Source: Clostridia bacterium
GTDB taxonomy: Bacteria > Bacillota > Clostridia > Oscillospirales > Acutalibacteraceae
Direction: 5' to 3'
DNA: 41,802 bases
Assembly: GCA_017472225.1 (NCBI GenBank)
Contig: JAFUQS010000104.1
Span: 1 to 41,802 of the forward strand
Shown in pieces: positions 1 through 41,802 of the stretch; the stretch's first letter is position 1; each line of letters begins with the position of its first letter. Below the pieces are notes generated by a model. The model was not told where the DNA came from and made no database searches. It was given only the letters and a program-made list of their open reading frames with translations. A program made the position numbers and the translations under genes.

Positions 1-468
1 AAAAAGAGCTGTTCTGAAACCGAGCAGTGTTATGGCACAAAGTAGAAATCTGAAAATAACGTTAAGAAGAAATTTTGTTTTATTATACACGGTGAGCAGA
101 AAATAATACCGAGTAAATGGTAGAATAAGCCTTTATCGGTATTTTCAGATTGCTCCGTTGTGCCATACCACGGCTCGGTTGCCGAACAGCTCTGTTTAAA
201 ACAACGCTCAATAAAATGAGCCGCTTGGTTTAATTTGTTCCGTAAGGTCTGCTATTGTCTGATTTATTTGTGTGCCTTTCCACTGCCTGTAGTCCGACAG
301 TCGCCGCCGCTACAATCTGCTTTCTGAAAGAGAATTCCTTTTTACGCTGCTATTCTGATTTTTTTATGATTGTTTATTTTTTGCAGACTCCTTATTGTTT
401 TATCTTTTCCTAACTACTGTCTACTGACCCCTGTCTCCTGACTACTGTCTACTGACTACTGACTACTA
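1..468. repeat. Dispersed non-coding repeat, copy A (rearranged, head-to-head)
   Basis: Non-coding DNA related to 30422-30886 and 41326-41802. From about 132 to 468 it runs in the same direction as the second copy and ends in an ACTACTG-like heptamer tract (411-468). The left part (about 5-130) is the same element in the opposite direction, so 5-63 and 133-192 form a long imperfect inverted repeat (roughly 80% by eye). The switch falls at TCGGTATTTT (136-145). The element may extend left of the window. No plausible ORF is present. Confidence 0.85.
411..468. repeat. Degenerate heptamer tract (ACTACTG/CTGACTA type)
   Basis: The tract is built of imperfect 7-bp units such as TGACTAC and TGTCTAC in tandem. 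The same tract ends the other two copies of the dispersed element (30828-30885, and 41326-41383 in reverse), so it is part of the repeat family and not a chance microsatellite. It is too short and has no spacers, so it is not a CRISPR. Confidence 0.8.
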
Positions 469-585
469 AAAACGATTCACCTTCATTTTAAACTGTTGTT
501 CATTTTTTTACATCTGCTTTTTATGTCTAAATCCCCTTTTACAGAAATAGAATATACTGAATAACCACAAAAGGAGATTTGATAT

Positions 586-5673: not shown

Positions 5674-7323
5674 TTGAGTGACAACTTAAAGCTCGCTGAG
5701 CTTCTGTTTCCCGATATAACACAAACCCCTGCCGATATGGAAGAAAAGTTCCCGCCGAGAAGCCTCAAGGAGGGCGCAAGAGTTACAAGACTTGCTCCGA
5801 GTCCCACAGGCTTTCTCCACTTCGGTAATCTTTTCGCAGGTACGGTTGCATATAAAACCGCAAAGGTTACTGACGGTATCTTCTATGTAAGAGTTGAGGA
5901 TACAGACCAGAAAAGAAAGGTTGAAGGCGCAATCAAGGTTATGCTTGACGGCCTTAAGGCTTTCGATGTAACTGCTGACGAGGGCGTTATCGGTGAAGGT
6001 ATTGAAAAGGGTGACTACGGCCCTTATTACCAGAGTCAGAGAAAGGATATCTACCATGTTTTTGCAAAACAGCTTGTGCTTGACGGCCTTGCTTATCCTT
6101 GCTTCTGCTCTGCGGAGGAATTAGACGAAATCAGAGCAGCGCAGGAAAACGAGCCTATTAAGGGTTATTGGGGCTCCTATGCAAAATGCCGCAATCTTTC
6201 TTTTGAAGAAATTGAAAAAAATATCTCCGAAGCAAAGCCCTGGACTCTCCGCCTCAGGTCCCCCGGTGATATGGAGAAAAAATGCTTCTTTGACGACATG
6301 ATAAAGGGCAAAATCGAAATGCCCGAAAATGTGCAGGATGTTGTACTTCTCAAGTCCGACGGTATTCCTACATACCACTTTGCCCACGCAGTTGATGACC
6401 ATCTGATGCGCACAACCCATGTTGTAAGAGGCGACGAATGGATGTCAAGCTGTCCGATTCATCTTCAGCTTTTCAAGTGCCTCGGCTTCAAGGTGCCGAA
6501 GTACGCCCATGTTGCTCCCATTATGAAGGAGGAAAACGGAGGCAAGAGAAAGCTCTCAAAGCGCAAGGACCCGGAGGCTGCTGTTACCTTCTATGTTGAA
6601 AAGGGCTATCCGAAGGAAAGCGTTAACGAATACATTATGACGCTTATGAATTCCAATTTTGAGGATTGGAGAAAGACCAACAAGGATGCAGATATCAACT
6701 CCTTCCCCTTTAACCTTAAAAAGATGAGTGTTTCCGGTGCTTTGTTCGATATGGTAAAGCTCAACGACATTTCAAAAAATATAATCTCCCTGATGCCCGC
6801 AAAAAAGGTTTATGATTATGCCTCTGCCTGGGCAAAGGATTATGACAAGGACTTCTTTGAGCTTCTCACAAAAGACGAAGAATATTCCGTTAATATTCTC
6901 AACATTGACAGAGAAACTCCAAAGCCGAGAAAGGACATTGCATGCTTTGATGAAATCAAGGACTATGTCAGCTACTTCTTTGACGAAATATATGAAAAGA
7001 ATTATGAGCTGCCCGAAAATATAACTCCCGATATGGCAAAGGAAATTCTTGAAGCCTATATAAAGGAATACAACGGTGCAGATGACAAGCAGCAATGGTT
7101 TGACCGTATCAAAGCTCTTTGTGAGCCTCTCGGCTATACTCCCAATGTTAAGGAGTATAAGAAAACTCCCGAGCTTTTCAAGGGTCATGTAGGTGATGTT
7201 TCAACGGTTATCCGTATTGCCGTAACAGGCAGAAGAAACACCCCCGACCTTCATGCAATCATGAGTCTTCTTGGTGAGGACAAGGTAAAAGCAAGACTCA
7301 CTGATGCAATAGAATCTCTTTGA
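5674..7323 (+). CDS. gltX: Glutamate--tRNA ligase, divergent subtype
   Basis: 549 aa class I aminoacyl-tRNA synthetase that charges tRNA-Glu. The class I signature is PSPTGFLHFGN (the HIGH equivalent HFGN at 49-52), the KMSKS equivalent is KLSKR at 293-297, and RVEDTD follows the first motif. It starts at TTG 5674 with AGGAGG 7 bases upstream; no ATG is better placed. It is about 60-80 aa longer than common bacterial GltX, with an N-terminal extension of about 38 aa, and HFGN instead of the usual H(V/I)GG marks a divergent branch. glnS follows 13 bases later, so the cell need not depend on mischarging tRNA-Gln with this enzyme. Confidence 0.93.
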   Translation: MSDNLKLAELLFPDITQTPADMEEKFPPRSLKEGARVTRLAPSPTGFLHFGNLFAGTVAYKTAKVTDGIFYVRVEDTDQKRKVEGAIKVMLDGLKAFDVTADEGVIGEGIEKGDYGPYYQSQRKDIYHVFAKQLVLDGLAYPCFCSAEELDEIRAAQENEPIKGYWGSYAKCRNLSFEEIEKNISEAKPWTLRLRSPGDMEKKCFFDDMIKGKIEMPENVQDVVLLKSDGIPTYHFAHAVDDHLMRTTHVVRGDEWMSSCPIHLQLFKCLGFKVPKYAHVAPIMKEENGGKRKLSKRKDPEAAVTFYVEKGYPKESVNEYIMTLMNSNFEDWRKTNKDADINSFPFNLKKMSVSGALFDMVKLNDISKNIISLMPAKKVYDYASAWAKDYDKDFFELLTKDEEYSVNILNIDRETPKPRKDIACFDEIKDYVSYFFDEIYEKNYELPENITPDMAKEILEAYIKEYNGADDKQQWFDRIKALCEPLGYTPNVKEYKKTPELFKGHVGDVSTVIRIAVTGRRNTPDLHAIMSLLGEDKVKARLTDAIESL

Positions 7324-17920: not shown

Positions 17921-17970
17921 CTTTGGTGCTCGCCGCAAGGCGTTACCTTCTTGTAAGAAAGTAACCAAAG
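17921..17970. repeat. Compact three-stem palindromic element
   Basis: CTTTGG (17921-17926) and CCAAAG (17965-17970) can close a junction holding two hairpins: CGCC-GCAA-GGCG (17931-17942, GNRA loop) and GTTACCTTCT-TGTA-AGAAAGTAAC (17942-17965). It lies between nrnA and truB and resembles the CTTACTTTTGTC/GACAAAAGTAAG hairpin inside the large dispersed repeat. It is a REP/MITE-like element candidate. Confidence 0.65.
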
Positions 17971-17981
17971 AACTTTATTTG

Positions 17982-18938
17982 TTACTTATTCAGGTATGTT
18001 ACTATATACTCTGTAACTTCCGTTTTTGCTTTTTCAATGCTCTTGCCGTAAATTTCACAGCCGGCAGCTCTGATGTGTCCGCCGCCGCCGAAATTTGCAC
18101 AGATTGCCGCTGCATCAACATCCTCATCGGTACGGACAGAAACGCTGATAACACCGTCTTCCTCCTCACGCAGAGTAACACCGACCTTCACACCCTCAAT
18201 CTGGCGTGTGATAGGCTTGATTGCATCAAGAGCAGACTTATCCGTTCCGCTTTCACGAAGCATGGCTTGTGTCACCGAAATCACAGCAATTGTGCCACCT
18301 GCAAAAAACTCAAGGGATGAAAGGCACATTCTTTCAAGCATAATATTGTTCATGCTTTTTGTGTCAAACATTCTCACATTTATTCTGCTATGGTCAGCAC
18401 CCGCTGCAATAAGCTCGGAAGCAATAAGATGTGTTCTTACGGTAACATTTGAATATTTGAAGCAGCCCGTATCCGTACTGCAGCCCGTATAAATACAGGA
18501 AGCAATATCGCTGTCCGTTTCCACACCGAGAGCCTTGATGATGAGATAGATAATCTCACAGCATGAAGCACTGTGGGGCTCACAGTAGGTCTTTTTTGCA
18601 AAACGGCGGGAGCTTTCGTGATGATCAATTGAAAGATCAACTCTGTCACCGTATTTTTCGCTGAGGGCATCGCCCAGAAGCTTTCTTTCGGCAACATCAA
18701 CACTGACAATGAATTCTTCATCGAATTCATCCTCTTCAAGATCTTCAAAAAGATAATTATATTTACTGTTGATTTTGTCACCGTTCAGGAGCCTTACTCT
18801 TTTGCCCATTTTGCGCAAAGCTCTTAAAAGAGCAAAGCCACTGCCTAAGGTATCGCCGTCAGGGTTGATGTGAGTGAGGATAAGGATTTTATCTGCATTT
18901 TTCAGCTCGTGAACTGCCTGAGAAAATTCAATTTTCAT
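17982..18938 (-). CDS. nrnA: DHH-family phosphoesterase, NrnA-type oligoribonuclease / pAp phosphatase
   Basis: 318 aa, typical of NrnA. It degrades 2-5 nt RNAs and dephosphorylates pAp. Metal-site motifs are visible: THINPDGDTLG (about 22-32), VSVDVAE (about 79-85), DHH at 105-107, and the DHHA1 signature GGGGHIRAAG near 285. The start MKIEFSQ at 18938 is one base past the rbfA stop (TGAGATG) with GAGGTG upstream; the longer frame lies inside rbfA. rbfA-nrnA-truB is a conserved order in Firmicutes. Confidence 0.92.
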   Translation of the reverse strand: MKIEFSQAVHELKNADKILILTHINPDGDTLGSGFALLRALRKMGKRVRLLNGDKINSKYNYLFEDLEEDEFDEEFIVSVDVAERKLLGDALSEKYGDRVDLSIDHHESSRRFAKKTYCEPHSASCCEIIYLIIKALGVETDSDIASCIYTGCSTDTGCFKYSNVTVRTHLIASELIAAGADHSRINVRMFDTKSMNNIMLERMCLSSLEFFAGGTIAVISVTQAMLRESGTDKSALDAIKPITRQIEGVKVGVTLREEEDGVISVSVRTDEDVDAAAICANFGGGGHIRAAGCEIYGKSIEKAKTEVTEYIVTYLNK

Positions 18939-28870: not shown

Positions 28871-28895
28871 GAGTTGGTATTTGTGTAACACTTAT

Positions 28896-28920
28896 CCCGG
28901 CGCAGCTCAGCTTGGCAAGT
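28896..28920 (+). pseudogene. Truncated tRNA-like 5' piece 1
   Basis: CGGCGCAGCTCAGCTTGG near 28899-28916 resembles the acceptor 5' strand and D arm of the intact tRNA-Pro (CGAGGCGTAGCTCAGTTTGG), more diverged than piece 2. No anticodon arm follows. Confidence 0.5.
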
Positions 28921-28939
28921 GCAATATAATATTTTTTAT

Positions 28940-28962
28940 CGAGGCGTAGCTCAGTTTGGTAG
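28940..28962 (+). pseudogene. Truncated tRNA-Pro 5' piece 2 (exact copy of nt 1-23)
   Basis: Nucleotides 28940-28962 equal the first 23 nt of the intact tRNA-Pro at 29136 and share flanking TTTAT upstream. The match stops in the D loop/stem and non-tRNA sequence follows. It forms a direct repeat with the true tRNA 5' end, 196 bp apart. Confidence 0.85.
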
Positions 28963-29135
28963 CTTTGAGCCTGAGCGCCGCCGGTGGCGGAAACAGCGAG
29001 GGCGAAAAGGCGCAGCGGTCAAAATCGCTCGGCGCACCAAGCCGAAATGCGATTTTGGGCACCGCAAGAGTAAGCCTGCTTTGGGCAAAGCAGGGGCAGA
29101 TAAACAGAAAAAGCCTAAAAATTTAATAATTTTAT
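28963..29135 (+). other. Structured insert between tRNA-Pro 5' copies
   Basis: 173 bp, GC-rich in its first half, with three hairpins: CCGCC-GGT-GGCGG (28978-28990), AAAATCGC-TCGGC...GCCGA-AAT-GCGATTTT (29021-29056), and CCTGCTTT-GGGC-AAAGCAGG (29075-29094). The last resembles the tRNA-Pro anticodon arm (CCTGCTTTGGGAGCAGG). A short frame through it looks like low-complexity arginine-rich junk and is not called. Confidence 0.7.
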
Positions 29136-29212
29136 CGAGGCGTAGCTCAGTTTGGTAGAGTGCCTGCTTTGGGAGCAGGATGCCGCAGGTTCAAGTCCTG
29201 TCGCCTCGACCA
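29136..29212 (+). tRNA. tRNA-Pro (anticodon TGG)
   Basis: 77 nt with encoded CCA. Acceptor CGAGGCG/CGCCTCG pairs fully, discriminator A, D arm GCTC...GAGT, anticodon stem CCTGC/GCAGG with loop TTTGGGA (anticodon TGG), T arm GCAGG-TTCAAGT-CCTGT. It reads CCN Pro codons, mostly CCA/CCG. Downstream of a strong promoter and two partial copies. Confidence 0.97.
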
Positions 29213-29246
29213 TATTTTTTTATATCCGCAGATGGGGAGGATAAAT

Positions 29247-30200
29247 ATGTCAATAAAAGTTTTTATCGACAAGTACGCAAATCAGATTCAGGCGATGAAC
29301 CCTAAATATGATGTTATTTATGAGGTATCAAAGGATAACCCCATTGTTTTTGAAAACAGTGCAGAGGTCAGGCTTTCAATGGCTGTTATTGCTGACACAC
29401 ATCTGCCCAACAGAGAAAGCGCAGAGCTGAATCTCGGAAACACCTTTGAAGACCTTGCAAATTCTCAGGAAAAGTTTGATGCCTTTCTCATGGCAGGCGA
29501 CATTGCCGATTACGGTACAAACAACGAATATGAAAGATTTTTCAGAGTGCTTGACAACCAGAAGGTTGTTGAAAACATTTTTGTCACCATGGGCAATCAC
29601 GATGCACGCTTCTTTTTCAAAAAGAACTGCAGAATCGTCATGAACAAGGTTGAAGAATATCTGAAAATCAAAACACAGGGAAAAAGCTATTATTCCTATG
29701 ACATAAAGGGCTACACCTTTATTGTTATCTGCACGGAAAAAAGAGTGCTTGAAAAGGCTTATATTTCCAAGGAGCAGATGGCTTTCCTTGACAAAGAGCT
29801 TGAAAGAGGTACCCGTGACGGTAAGCCTGTTTTTGTAATGTGTCATCAGCCCTTTGCAGAAACCCACGGACTTCCCGAGGTGTGGAAAACAGGTGACATG
29901 GGCGAGCAGAACGACGAGGTCAGAGCCATTATGGAAAAATACAGCAATGTATTTTTCATTAACGGACACCTTCACGGTGGTATTTTTGAAAAGCTTCCCG
30001 AAACCCTCAACGAAGAAAAAGGCGTTTATTCCATCAGTATACCCGGCTACAGAAAGCCTAACAACTTCGGCATAACAGATTGCGGTGTGGGCTACTACTG
30101 TGAGGTTTATGATGATAAGGTTGTTTTCAAAGCCAGAAACTTCCTCAAGGGCGAAAATATTGAAGGCGATTATACAAGACTTGAATATGCCATAAAATAA
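29247..30200 (+). CDS. Calcineurin-like metallophosphoesterase
   Basis: 317 aa, two-metal phosphoesterase. Motifs in order: IADTH (Asp50, His52), GDIAD (84-88), GNHD (116-119), CHQPF near 204, GHLHGG near 243. There is no signal peptide, so it is probably cytoplasmic. GGGGAGG (29234-29240) fixes the ATG at 29247; the longer frame begins inside the tRNA and is rejected. Relatives act on phosphodiesters or cyclic nucleotides; the substrate here is unknown. It may be read through from the tRNA-Pro promoter. Confidence 0.9.
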   Translation: MSIKVFIDKYANQIQAMNPKYDVIYEVSKDNPIVFENSAEVRLSMAVIADTHLPNRESAELNLGNTFEDLANSQEKFDAFLMAGDIADYGTNNEYERFFRVLDNQKVVENIFVTMGNHDARFFFKKNCRIVMNKVEEYLKIKTQGKSYYSYDIKGYTFIVICTEKRVLEKAYISKEQMAFLDKELERGTRDGKPVFVMCHQPFAETHGLPEVWKTGDMGEQNDEVRAIMEKYSNVFFINGHLHGGIFEKLPETLNEEKGVYSISIPGYRKPNNFGITDCGVGYYCEVYDDKVVFKARNFLKGENIEGDYTRLEYAIK

Positions 30201-30264
30201 AAAAACGGGGATGAAAAAGATACATCCCCTGTGTATGCAAAAAAAATCAGATAGTTAAACATAC

Positions 30265-30304
30265 AAAACCATTGTAGAAGCGAAATGCTTGATACAATGG
30301 TTTT
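30265..30304 (+). terminator. Intrinsic terminator after the metallophosphoesterase
   Basis: AAAACCATTGTA (30265-30276) and TACAATGGTTTT (30293-30304) with an inner AAGC/GCTT stem, followed by a T-rich tail. A weaker GGGGATG/CATCCCC hairpin lies at 30207-30229. Confidence 0.85.
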
Positions 30305-30421
30305 TATATTTTTCTGACTACTTTCTACTCAAAGTGTATTTACCTTCGCTTTTATGTGCCGTGGTGAAAACGGCAAGGTTTTATCTGTTCCTCTGACTCC
30401 GCTCGCTCAAGCCGCTTGGGC

Positions 30422-30886
30422 TCTTACTTTTGTCGGTTGTGACAAAAGTAAGCAAAAGCACGCTTTTTTGTGGATTAACCTCCGCAAGAACTAAAAATAC
30501 CGAGTAAGGCTTATTCTATCCTTTACTCGGTAGTCTTTTCTGCTCACCGTAGATAAGAAAACAAGGTTTCTTCTTATCGGTATTTTCAGATTGCTCCGTT
30601 GTGCCATACCACGGCTCGTTTGCCGAACAGCTCTATTTAAAACAACGCTCAATAAATTGAGCCGCTCGGTTTAATTTGTTCCGCAAGGTATGCTATTGTC
30701 TAATTTATTTGTGTGCCTTTCCACTGCGTGTAGTCCGACAGTCGCTCCCGCTACAATCTGCTTTCTGAAAGAGAATTCCTCTTTACGTTGTTTTTCTGAT
30801 TATTTAAATGATTGTTTGTTTTTTTCTGACTACTGTCTACTGTCTACTGATCCCTGACTACTGTCTACCGACTACTGACTACTATT
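30422..30886. repeat. Dispersed non-coding repeat, copy B
   Basis: Forward-direction full-looking copy. In order: hairpin CTTACTTTTGTC/GACAAAAGTAAG (30423-30452), hairpin TACCGAGTAA/TTACTCGGTA (30498-30532), hairpin GATAAGAA/TTCTTATC (30552-30578), a conserved block through about 30780 (about 90% to copy A by eye), then the heptamer tract (30828-30885). It lies between the convergent metallophosphoesterase and AraC genes. No ORF. Confidence 0.87.
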
Positions 30887-30934
30887 TGATTGGTCAGACA
30901 TTCAAAGAGGTTCTGTCTTTTTTGCAGTCCCTTT

Positions 30935-31657
30935 TCATTTTACCATCTTGAAATACTCTGTGGGGGTCATGTGATAATGCTTTTTGAAAGCCGTTATAAA
31001 ATGGGATTGTGATGAAAAGCCGAGAAGTGAACAGACCTCACGGCTGCTTTTATTTTCAGAAAGAAGATTTTTTGCTTTCTCAAGCTTTTTCCTTGTTATA
31101 TATGAGCTGAGATTTTCACCCATCTCCTCCTTGAATACCTGAGAAAGATAATCCGGTGAAATTCCGCAAAGCTCCGACAGACCGGCTACAGTTATTTTTT
31201 TGCCCATATTCTCATTTATATAACAAATGCATTTTCTGACATAAGGCGATTTCTTTATTCTTTCCTTGCTTTCTCTCACCATATCCGTAAGCCTTATTAT
31301 CTGACCGGCAGTGAAATTAAGAATATCAGCTTTTGTTTTCATTGTATCCACCGACATAATAACCCTGTCAGAAAATTCATATGCCGTGCTTTCATCAAGT
31401 CCGCCCTGAATTGCATACCTTGTGGCTAAGGTGACGGTGCTGACGGCAAGGTATTTATACTGCATTATTCCATCATTTGAAAGCTTGCCCGTTATTATTG
31501 ATGACTCAATGCTTTGCAATTCCGCCATCAGCTTTTCAATATCTCCGAGCTGAACACAGGAAAACATCCTCACCTCAGCACGGTATGGCGTATGCTTTTC
31601 CGTGAAGTCTTCTTCATCACCAAGGGTCTTTATGCTTATCAGTTCACCGATGTTCAT
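30935..31657 (-). CDS. AraC-family transcriptional regulator
   Basis: 240 aa. The C-terminal ~100 residues hold the AraC double helix-turn-helix: ITVAGLSELCGISPDYLSQVFKEEMG and the second helix pair SREVCSLLGFSSQSHFITAFKK, ending in the typical MTPTEYF. The N-terminal ~135 residues are helical and of unknown ligand. GAGGTG precedes ATG 31657. The targets cannot be named; no sugar or drug genes are adjacent except the ferredoxin-like gene upstream on the same strand. Confidence 0.9.
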   Translation of the reverse strand: MNIGELISIKTLGDEEDFTEKHTPYRAEVRMFSCVQLGDIEKLMAELQSIESSIITGKLSNDGIMQYKYLAVSTVTLATRYAIQGGLDESTAYEFSDRVIMSVDTMKTKADILNFTAGQIIRLTDMVRESKERIKKSPYVRKCICYINENMGKKITVAGLSELCGISPDYLSQVFKEEMGENLSSYITRKKLEKAKNLLSENKSSREVCSLLGFSSQSHFITAFKKHYHMTPTEYFKMVK

Positions 31658-41325: not shown

Positions 41326-41802
41326 AGTAGTCAGTAGTCAGGGGACAGTAGGCAGTAGACAGTAGTCAGTAGTCAGTAGTCAGGAAAAGATAAAACAATA
41401 AGGAGTCTGCAAAGCAAATAACCCTTGAAAAAACGAGAGTGACAACATAAAAAGGAATTCTCTTTCAGAAAGCAGCTTGTAGCGGGAGCGACTGTCGGAC
41501 TACAGGTAATGGAAAGGCACACAAATAAATCAGACAATAGCAAACCTTACGGAACAAATTAAACCAAGCGGCTCATTTTATTGAGCGTTGTTTTAATTAG
41601 AGTTGTTCGGCAACCGAGCCGTGGTATTGCAGAACGGAGCAATCTGAAAATACCGATAAGAAGAAACCTTGTTTTCTTATCTACGGTGAGCAGAAATGAA
41701 TACCGAGTACAGGATAGAATAAACCTGACTCGGTATTTTTAGTTCTTGCGGAAGCTAATCCGCCAGCGTGCTTTTGCTTACTTTTGTCACGCTTGACAAA
41801 AG
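41326..41802. repeat. Dispersed non-coding repeat, copy C (reverse, cut by window end)
   Basis: Reverse-direction copy. It starts with the heptamer tract (41326-41383), shares GATAAAACAATAAGGAGTC with copy A (as complement), then the conserved block and hairpins. The TACCGAGT/ACTCGGTA hairpin is at 41701-41735, and the CTTTTGTC/GACAAAAG hairpin at 41781-41802 is cut by the window end. It follows mltG. No ORF. Confidence 0.87.

Follow-up and report, generated by a model that had tools for sequence, protein, structure and literature searches.

Sequence comparison indicates that the repeat at 30355-30800 of the window (the whole stretch of 41,802 nucleotides analysed here) is genuine: a dispersed, non-autonomous element of high copy number, with a conserved fold resolved in part and a triplex-like hairpin at one end. 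The unit is one discrete piece dispersed in tens of copies, and the flank in which it sits also occurs without it. Hairpins P0 and P form a block at one of its ends, and in at least two helices pairing persists although the letters change. We put the probability at roughly 0.65 that this is a non-autonomous mobile element of about 450 bp with a structured core, which would be moved by an enzyme supplied in trans.

Copies, layout and edges of the unit

The sequence-only reading of the window had described three gene-free, intergenic copies of an element, A at 1-468, B at 30422-30886 and C at 41326-41802, with long blocks in common. The blocks are confirmed, copies B and C (an inverted pair) having 351 nt in common at 90% and copies A and B 232 nt at 94%; there is no listed ORF of 100 aa or more inside copy B, which lies between convergent ORFs at 29160-30200 (plus) and 30935-31657 (minus). 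The repeat is genuine, and far more abundant than three copies. In the genome that holds the window (G000; 2.33 Mb in 111 contigs, 91% complete) the copy-B stretch matched at least 66 places with 40 of the 130 first-look candidates scored, far beyond chance, and the copies are mutually 84-93% alike. A degenerate-pattern scan for P gave 67 copies there, 34 and 33 on the two strands, of which 64 are mismatch-free to the pattern; the reversed-pattern control gave 0. Because 22 of these 67 lie less than 500 bases from the first base of a contig, the assembly is probably broken at the element and the copy number is uncertain; copy A, which is also at the end of a contig, may be an artefact of assembly.

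The bounds given to copy B need revision, since the real unit begins about 67 nt further left and stops about 86 nt earlier, and the tail at 30801-30886 is flanking repeat, as is the sequence left of 30355. The unit runs from a left hairpin through P0 and P to a core (C1-C2) with a conserved 3' box, and is followed by a T-rich tail and heptad arrays (Table 1). In the G000 alignment, which 26 of 30 loci entered, pairwise conservation is about 0.92 from P0 to the box, compared with 0.80 on the T side and 0.87 at the C2 end. No terminal inverted repeat was seen by eye in single units. There are two unit types, C and W, one of each standing tail to tail at loci L021 and L024. Inward-facing P+...P- pairs, 15 in all and spanning 496-812 bp, occur in 14 of the 46 genus loci with a P match (G000 not counted; 56 loci were searched, and six that repeat another locus, as well as matches below about 29 bits, were left out). 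The same-genus genome G021 appears to be the Clostridia bacterium RGIG895 MAG, from dairy cattle rectum: its locus L033 has the same sequence as L043 of that MAG over the stretch compared.

Table 1. Positions in the window of the unit, its parts and its flanking repeats
Feature	Position	Strand	Basis or remark
Putative mobile unit, copy B	30355-30800	+	Ends uncertain by a few nt; about 450 bp
Copy C	41434-41802	-	Cut inside P by the contig end
Copy A	11-358		Partial, fold-back: about 11-148 inverted, about 133-358 direct
N hairpin repeat (flank, outside the unit)	30265-30311	+	Repeat search
Target repeat K, left half	30330-30354	+	Flank comparison
Left subterminal hairpin TGCCGTGGTGAAAACGGCA	30357-30375	+	Terminator-like scan
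P0 hairpin	30405-30422	+	A2 helix 1: 89.3% of cells paired, two-sided changes in 1 of 4 pairs
P hairpin, 12-bp stem	30423-30452	+	A2 helix 2: 95.2% of cells paired, two-sided changes in 7 of 12 pairs
Third segment (CAAAAGCACGC), A-run matching that of P	30453-30463	+	String comparison
Stem S1	5' arm 30494-30502, 3' arm 30578-30586	+	Same position, different letters in several relatives
H1, TACCGAGT hairpin of the sequence-only reading	30498-30532	+	Pair counts, 26 copies
3' box CCGACA[GT]TCG...CCGCT	30735-30755	+	A3: core letters invariant or nearly so, 26 sequences
Target repeat K, right T-rich half	30801-30826	+	Flank comparison
Heptad array (CTGACTA)n	30827-30884	+	Copy comparison
Possible empty-type K, just after the copy A heptads	475-508	+	73.5% over 34 nt, E 0.084; chance-level by score

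The left edge, ...CTTCGCTTTTA/TGTGCCGTGG... with the slash at the boundary (...CTTCGCTTTTA/TGTGCC... or a close variant), is found in 26 of the 28 occupied copies and the T-rich right flank in 19 of the 28, and in 26 of the 28 G000 copies the unit stands at one and the same point of K; the left flank of L026 is a different one, and heptads are absent from L014. At L229 the two flank halves are joined without the unit, the match spanning the joint over 49 nt (79.6%, E 1.6e-6). Weaker candidates for the empty type follow heptads at L230 (41 nt, 73.2%, E 0.031) and at L226 and L213 (E 0.084 each); since L023 and L223, which do not follow heptads, also reach E 0.031, as L230 does, only L229 is strong by score. 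There is no clear target duplication, the only similarity being between T-rich CTTTTA and TTTTTA(A), and the copies of G059 were set aside for this purpose because their homologous flanks give no clean edge.

In the sister species G017, where seven of eight loci were compared on the left (L071 was left out) and five on the right, pairwise identity left of the unit is 0.22-0.32 (0.44 in one comparison window at -30) and climbs to 0.76 and 0.92 at P0, and on the right similarity fades over about 60 nt past the box. A flank without the unit at L229, taken with unrelated flanks in G017, argues that the unit disperses as a discrete piece; as evidence of a jump this is indirect. Nearly all G000 copies sit at the same spot of K, so that in this genome K and unit may have been amplified as a block, some of the copies perhaps having spread along with their flank.

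The flanking repeats are abundant in their own right. Degenerate heptad arrays (TGACTAC, TGTCTAC, TGACCCC and others) are present at 410-466, 30827-30884 and 41327-41382 and genome-wide, the pattern CTACTGNCTACTGNCT with 1 mismatch giving 304 overlapping matches in G000 (177 and 127) and 0 in the control; they occur in relatives too, L113 and L114 having no P match. The N repeat, a hairpin (AACCATTGTAAAAGCTGAA...TTGATACAATGGTT) with at least 47 matches in G000 (40 of 108 candidates scored), has many copies of the unit to its right but also stands alone, usually then followed by heptads, and is often found just past genes and ahead of heptads (loci L220-L231).

The end hairpins, the third segment and the interior fold

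Hairpin P covaries. Model R1, which spans P0 and P, matches copy B at 30402-30481 with 91.7 bits, and in alignment A2 (28 sequences from 15 genomes) 93.8% of cells are paired, against 39-50% in the slid controls. Two-sided cells number 48 in A2 against 12.5 in shuffles (0 of 500), as always with the proviso that the relatedness of the sequences inflates all of the shuffle tests; the number of pairs with a two-sided change, 8 against 6.6, is not above the shuffles (110/500). Within G000 alone the 67 copies divide at one P stem pair into 53 with G-C, 12 with A-T and 2 with A.C, which is a compensatory change inside one genome.

Directly after P come a C and then an A-run. Among 81 distinct strings from a pattern search, 78 have a third A-run that equals or exceeds the stem A-run in length: a stem run of 3 goes with a third run of 3 (20 strings) or 4 (8), a stem run of 4 with 4 (28), 5 (11), 6 (3) or 7 (1), and a stem run of 5 with 5 (5) or 6 (2), and the three strings with a third run of 1 look like chance. 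Compared with the mirror of the P purine strand, 78 distinct P-like strings give a mean match of 4.01 against 3.28 when shuffled (0 of 5000; the L017 and L196 matches were dropped as unrelated and two no-match strings kept), although both the mirror and the run tests overstate significance because of kinship among many of the strings and because some letters are dictated by the pattern. The inner G meets G in 19 of 21 strings. The inner C meets G in 22, A in 21, C in 10 and T in 2, being matched in only 10 of 55, so that only the purine part is mirrored; L148, L158 and L164 are among the cases in which the segment is a mirror rather than a direct repeat. The pyrimidine, purine, mirrored purine order of potential intrastrand triplex (PIT) elements and class II intrastrand triplexes is thus present, and, as far as letters can indicate it, the plus strand has the layout of a class II purine triplex and the minus strand that of a U.A-U/C+.G-C triplex.

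Stem S1 in the core has arms about 85 nt apart, whose letters vary by species and whose distance from P is similar. Its stem score was matched by no more than 2 of 200 shuffles in nine of 17 sequences (by no more than 1 in eight), and by genome it is strong in six of 11 (G000, G002, G014, G017, G021 and G031) and weak in two (G007, 20/200; G013, 6 and 10/200). Three of the 17 sequences have a weaker S1, four (L063, L067, L056 and L100, of genomes G004, G005 and G016) have none, and L062 has the short-loop form only. In alignment A4 (15 sequences, five genomes) S1 is 85.3% paired, with 9 two-sided cells against 3.2 shuffled (0 of 500), a result made favourable by selection, as A4 was taken from species with well-aligned S1; slid by -1, A4 is still 51.3% paired, and pairs with a two-sided change are not above shuffles (2 against 1.7, 343/500). 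Alignment A1, which misaligns S1 in about six rows, has S1 59.5% paired, with pairs showing a two-sided change again not above shuffles (72/500), and further pair types do not exceed shuffles in either A1 or A4 (500/500 each). S1 covaries in part of the genus. On the 32-sequence core in a plain MAFFT alignment (32 of 40 cores have the 3' motif and eight were dropped) RNAalifold found hardly any consensus pairs, and it found no consensus on A3, where there are no consensus pairs at the 3' box either. Of 32 cores, 24 have the lower predicted minimum free energy (MFE) on the minus strand, and mean z-scores are -2.67 for plus and -2.88 for minus (12 shuffles each), so that the modelled evidence on strand leans to minus.

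The case for a fold had earlier been made from another hairpin, H1, in which AAGG/CCTT of copy B is replaced by CAGG/CCTG in copy C. That difference is true of B and C, but pairing is not kept over 26 G000 copies (B included, A and C excluded), which divide evenly between A-T and a C.T mismatch at that pair (13 each). With the mismatch in 13 of 26 copies, H1 is no evidence of conserved pairing, and the supposed compensatory change fails as support for a fold; H1 moreover overlaps the 5' arm of S1, which makes the two alternatives. Covariation favours P and, in part of the genus, S1, but not H1, and the suggestion of a mobile non-autonomous element or a multi-copy structured RNA was largely right, with its fold backed instead by P, S1 and the third-strand mirror.

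Genomic context and distribution

ORFs (called by simple scripts) flank the element on each side at 24 of 30 G000 loci; 15 of these loci are convergent, 6 tandem plus, 2 tandem minus and 1 divergent, and the P-side gene points at the element in 23 of 27. Five G017 copies comprise two convergent, two tandem and one divergent, a mixed context which indicates that the preference for gene 3' ends is not general. An ortholog of the left gene was found in 15 relatives with 985-1503 bases downstream available, and the element adjoins it in one of the 15, on the other strand; this search used a G000 profile with E up to 1, and a one-species profile may miss diverged copies.

Searching the whole genome and relatives for copies, as the sequence-only reading had advised, gave matches in relatives besides the 67 P copies in G000. 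A search with the element of the window matches 16 of 33 other genomes of the same genus (G012 and G018 via heptads only) and 0 of 25 genomes outside the genus; between species BLAST matches mainly the P module and the heptads, the core being matched by profile only. R1 reaches further, to at least 45 of 394 genomes of the order and 32 of 169 genera, G000 included and with at most 11 candidates scored per genome. In a draw from the phylum it matches seven of 398 genomes (G000, one of the family, one of the order, one of the class and three elsewhere). For R2, the 3' box region, only G000 is convincing in the 394 genomes, with no other genome of the window's genus among the rows listed; three further matches have E 1.3e-4 to 8.3e-4, and the one of them that was read, L208, was rejected as a core outside the genus, lying inside apparent coding sequence. 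By these comparisons the core looks genus-specific.

The 11 copies in G059 (L176-L186), a genome from a different genus of the family, are nearly identical over P and the 70 nt or so after it but diverged in both flanks, a pattern that strong constraint on P alone, or conversion of it, might produce. Carriage by phages was considered and discarded, a pattern scan of viral contigs giving one contig with a GGTTAC variant, not the P of the window. Elsewhere in the window, a weak R1 match at 17923-17994 (21.8 bits, E 7.9e-4) overlaps ORF starts and is probably chance, and an exact 29-nt repeat at 28934-28962 and 29130-29158 lies over the start of a tRNA-Pro gene (29136-29212), with a third copy at 28890-28918 (72%) that is perhaps a truncated tRNA copy. 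L043 has a T-box leader match at 5948-6154, away from the element and slightly under the Rfam threshold (84.3 bits against a gathering score of 93, E 3.8e-17).

Nature of the element

The earlier view that the repeat belongs to no named family is borne out. At gathering score Rfam 15 finds only a tRNA in the window, and below it four chance-looking matches on 30250-30950 (E 0.016-2.7) and four on 12 relatives, none of them inside a unit; no published description of the repeat was found in the open-licence literature. At about 450 bp the unit differs from REPs, with their 20-40 bp unit and GTAG tag, and the P stem carries GTAA, GTAT or GGAA in most A2 rows; being A/T-rich, P also departs from the TM_ECO consensus CCCTCNCCC... 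The element appears to work in the manner of a hairpin-ended mobile element; we have not filed it as a MITE, a REP or a known RNA because the defining features of these are either absent or still open.

Several described systems nevertheless resemble parts of it. PIT, BoxC and TM_ECO elements (Holder et al. 2015; PMC4666352) have the same class II order, a hairpin followed by a third segment mirroring the purine strand, and occur in many copies per genome, sometimes as two inverted motifs; TM_ECO is, however, G/C-rich with 9-nt stems and a 3-nt second loop, whereas in P the core is an A-run of 3-6, with about 4-5 bp of additional outer stem and P0 ahead of it, and the whole stands near the end of a 450-bp unit. 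REP/RAYT and TIR-flanked TIRYT systems are likewise palindromic intergenic repeats thought to be mobilized in trans, although REPs are 20-40 bp with GTAG or CGTC tags (PMC3733652). Bacillus bcr1 and the stem-loop families are repeated and structured, most models being 31-200 bp and some larger, but bcr1 is 147-167 bp and found in Bacillus, and was compared with the unit by description only (PMC2267715). The intergenic 7-bp TAACTGA arrays of Beggiatoaceae resemble the flank heptads, but have another heptamer and stand before start codons (PMC4679880), and the heptads here are flank, not unit.

Two candidate movers were tried and rejected. The Y1 transposase/RAYT domain (PF01797) has 0 matches in the 91% complete G000 and no association in the genus, where it is present in 21 of 34 genomes (8 of 15 with P matches and 13 of 19 others), and the reverse transcriptase domain (PF00078) also has 0 matches in G000 and is found in 6 of 34 genomes of the genus.

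IS200/IS605-type enzymes recognize subterminal hairpins. By the same token, the mover of a non-autonomous element such as this one would recognize the folded P0-P end, probably single-stranded, and the unit would insert into T-rich DNA, in the G000 species mostly beside gene 3' ends. The third segment may fold onto P as a short triple helix that marks or stabilizes the end, and conservation of the interior fold may reflect either a need of single-stranded DNA to fold in order to be transferred or transcription of the minus strand into an RNA that has P close to its 3' end. The two-ended copies would arise where two units had inserted tail to tail. A more elaborate version, which we regard as speculative and rather improbable, is a mobile family whose moving form is a folded minus-strand RNA or single-stranded DNA of about 400 nt with a triple-helix cap, the cap being order-wide and the interiors particular to each genus; such a cap would be U.A-U with C+.G-C, or the A.A-T counterpart, covarying on all three strands.

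The fold could instead belong to a multi-copy structured non-coding RNA of the host, read from the minus strand with P and its U.A-U triple helix near the 3' end, spread by recombination and kept for its function. We hold this to be a tentative alternative, on the unlikely side: the lower minus-strand energies favour it, as do the rare A.C intermediate of P (2 of 67 on the plus strand), which on the minus strand would be a G.U wobble between the 53 G-C and 12 A-T copies, and the raised conservation from P0 to the box, but mean z-scores hardly differ by strand, promoters are at chance (1 found, 1.6 expected), copy position varies between species and the two-ended copies contain two units. That P0-P is a REP- or terminator-like DNA element, a terminator or nucleoid site between convergent genes with the rest as passenger, is unlikely in our estimation, even though 15 of the 24 G000 loci are convergent, terminator-like sites number 3 against 0.5 expected (one being P0 followed by T-rich DNA), and P turns up in many more genomes than does the 3' part of the core; within G000 the core is conserved as strongly as P, S1 covaries between species, and the five G017 copies have no convergent preference.

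Recombination between repeats might also have spread K, heptads and unit jointly with no transposition of the unit, which would account for the common insertion point in K and finds room in the arrangements around the 22 P copies near contig starts, these being unassembled; the unrelated left flanks in G017, the other left flank of L026 and the missing heptads of L014 make it improbable as the whole explanation. A decayed known IS or a group I/II intron remnant would fit the size and the gene-end location, but given that Rfam at gathering score finds only the tRNA in the window, with chance-looking matches below it, and that the element holds no ORF of 100 aa or more, we think it very improbable indeed.

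The non-autonomous mobile element that we favour is compact, is present in high copy number and has at least one visible empty site, which leaves its mover, its target and the strand that moves open to test. PIT elements in bacterial repeats have been proposed from sequence abundance; here, in several genera, the third segment changes in length and letters along with the stem, and this may provide an evolutionary handle on whether the triple strand matters.
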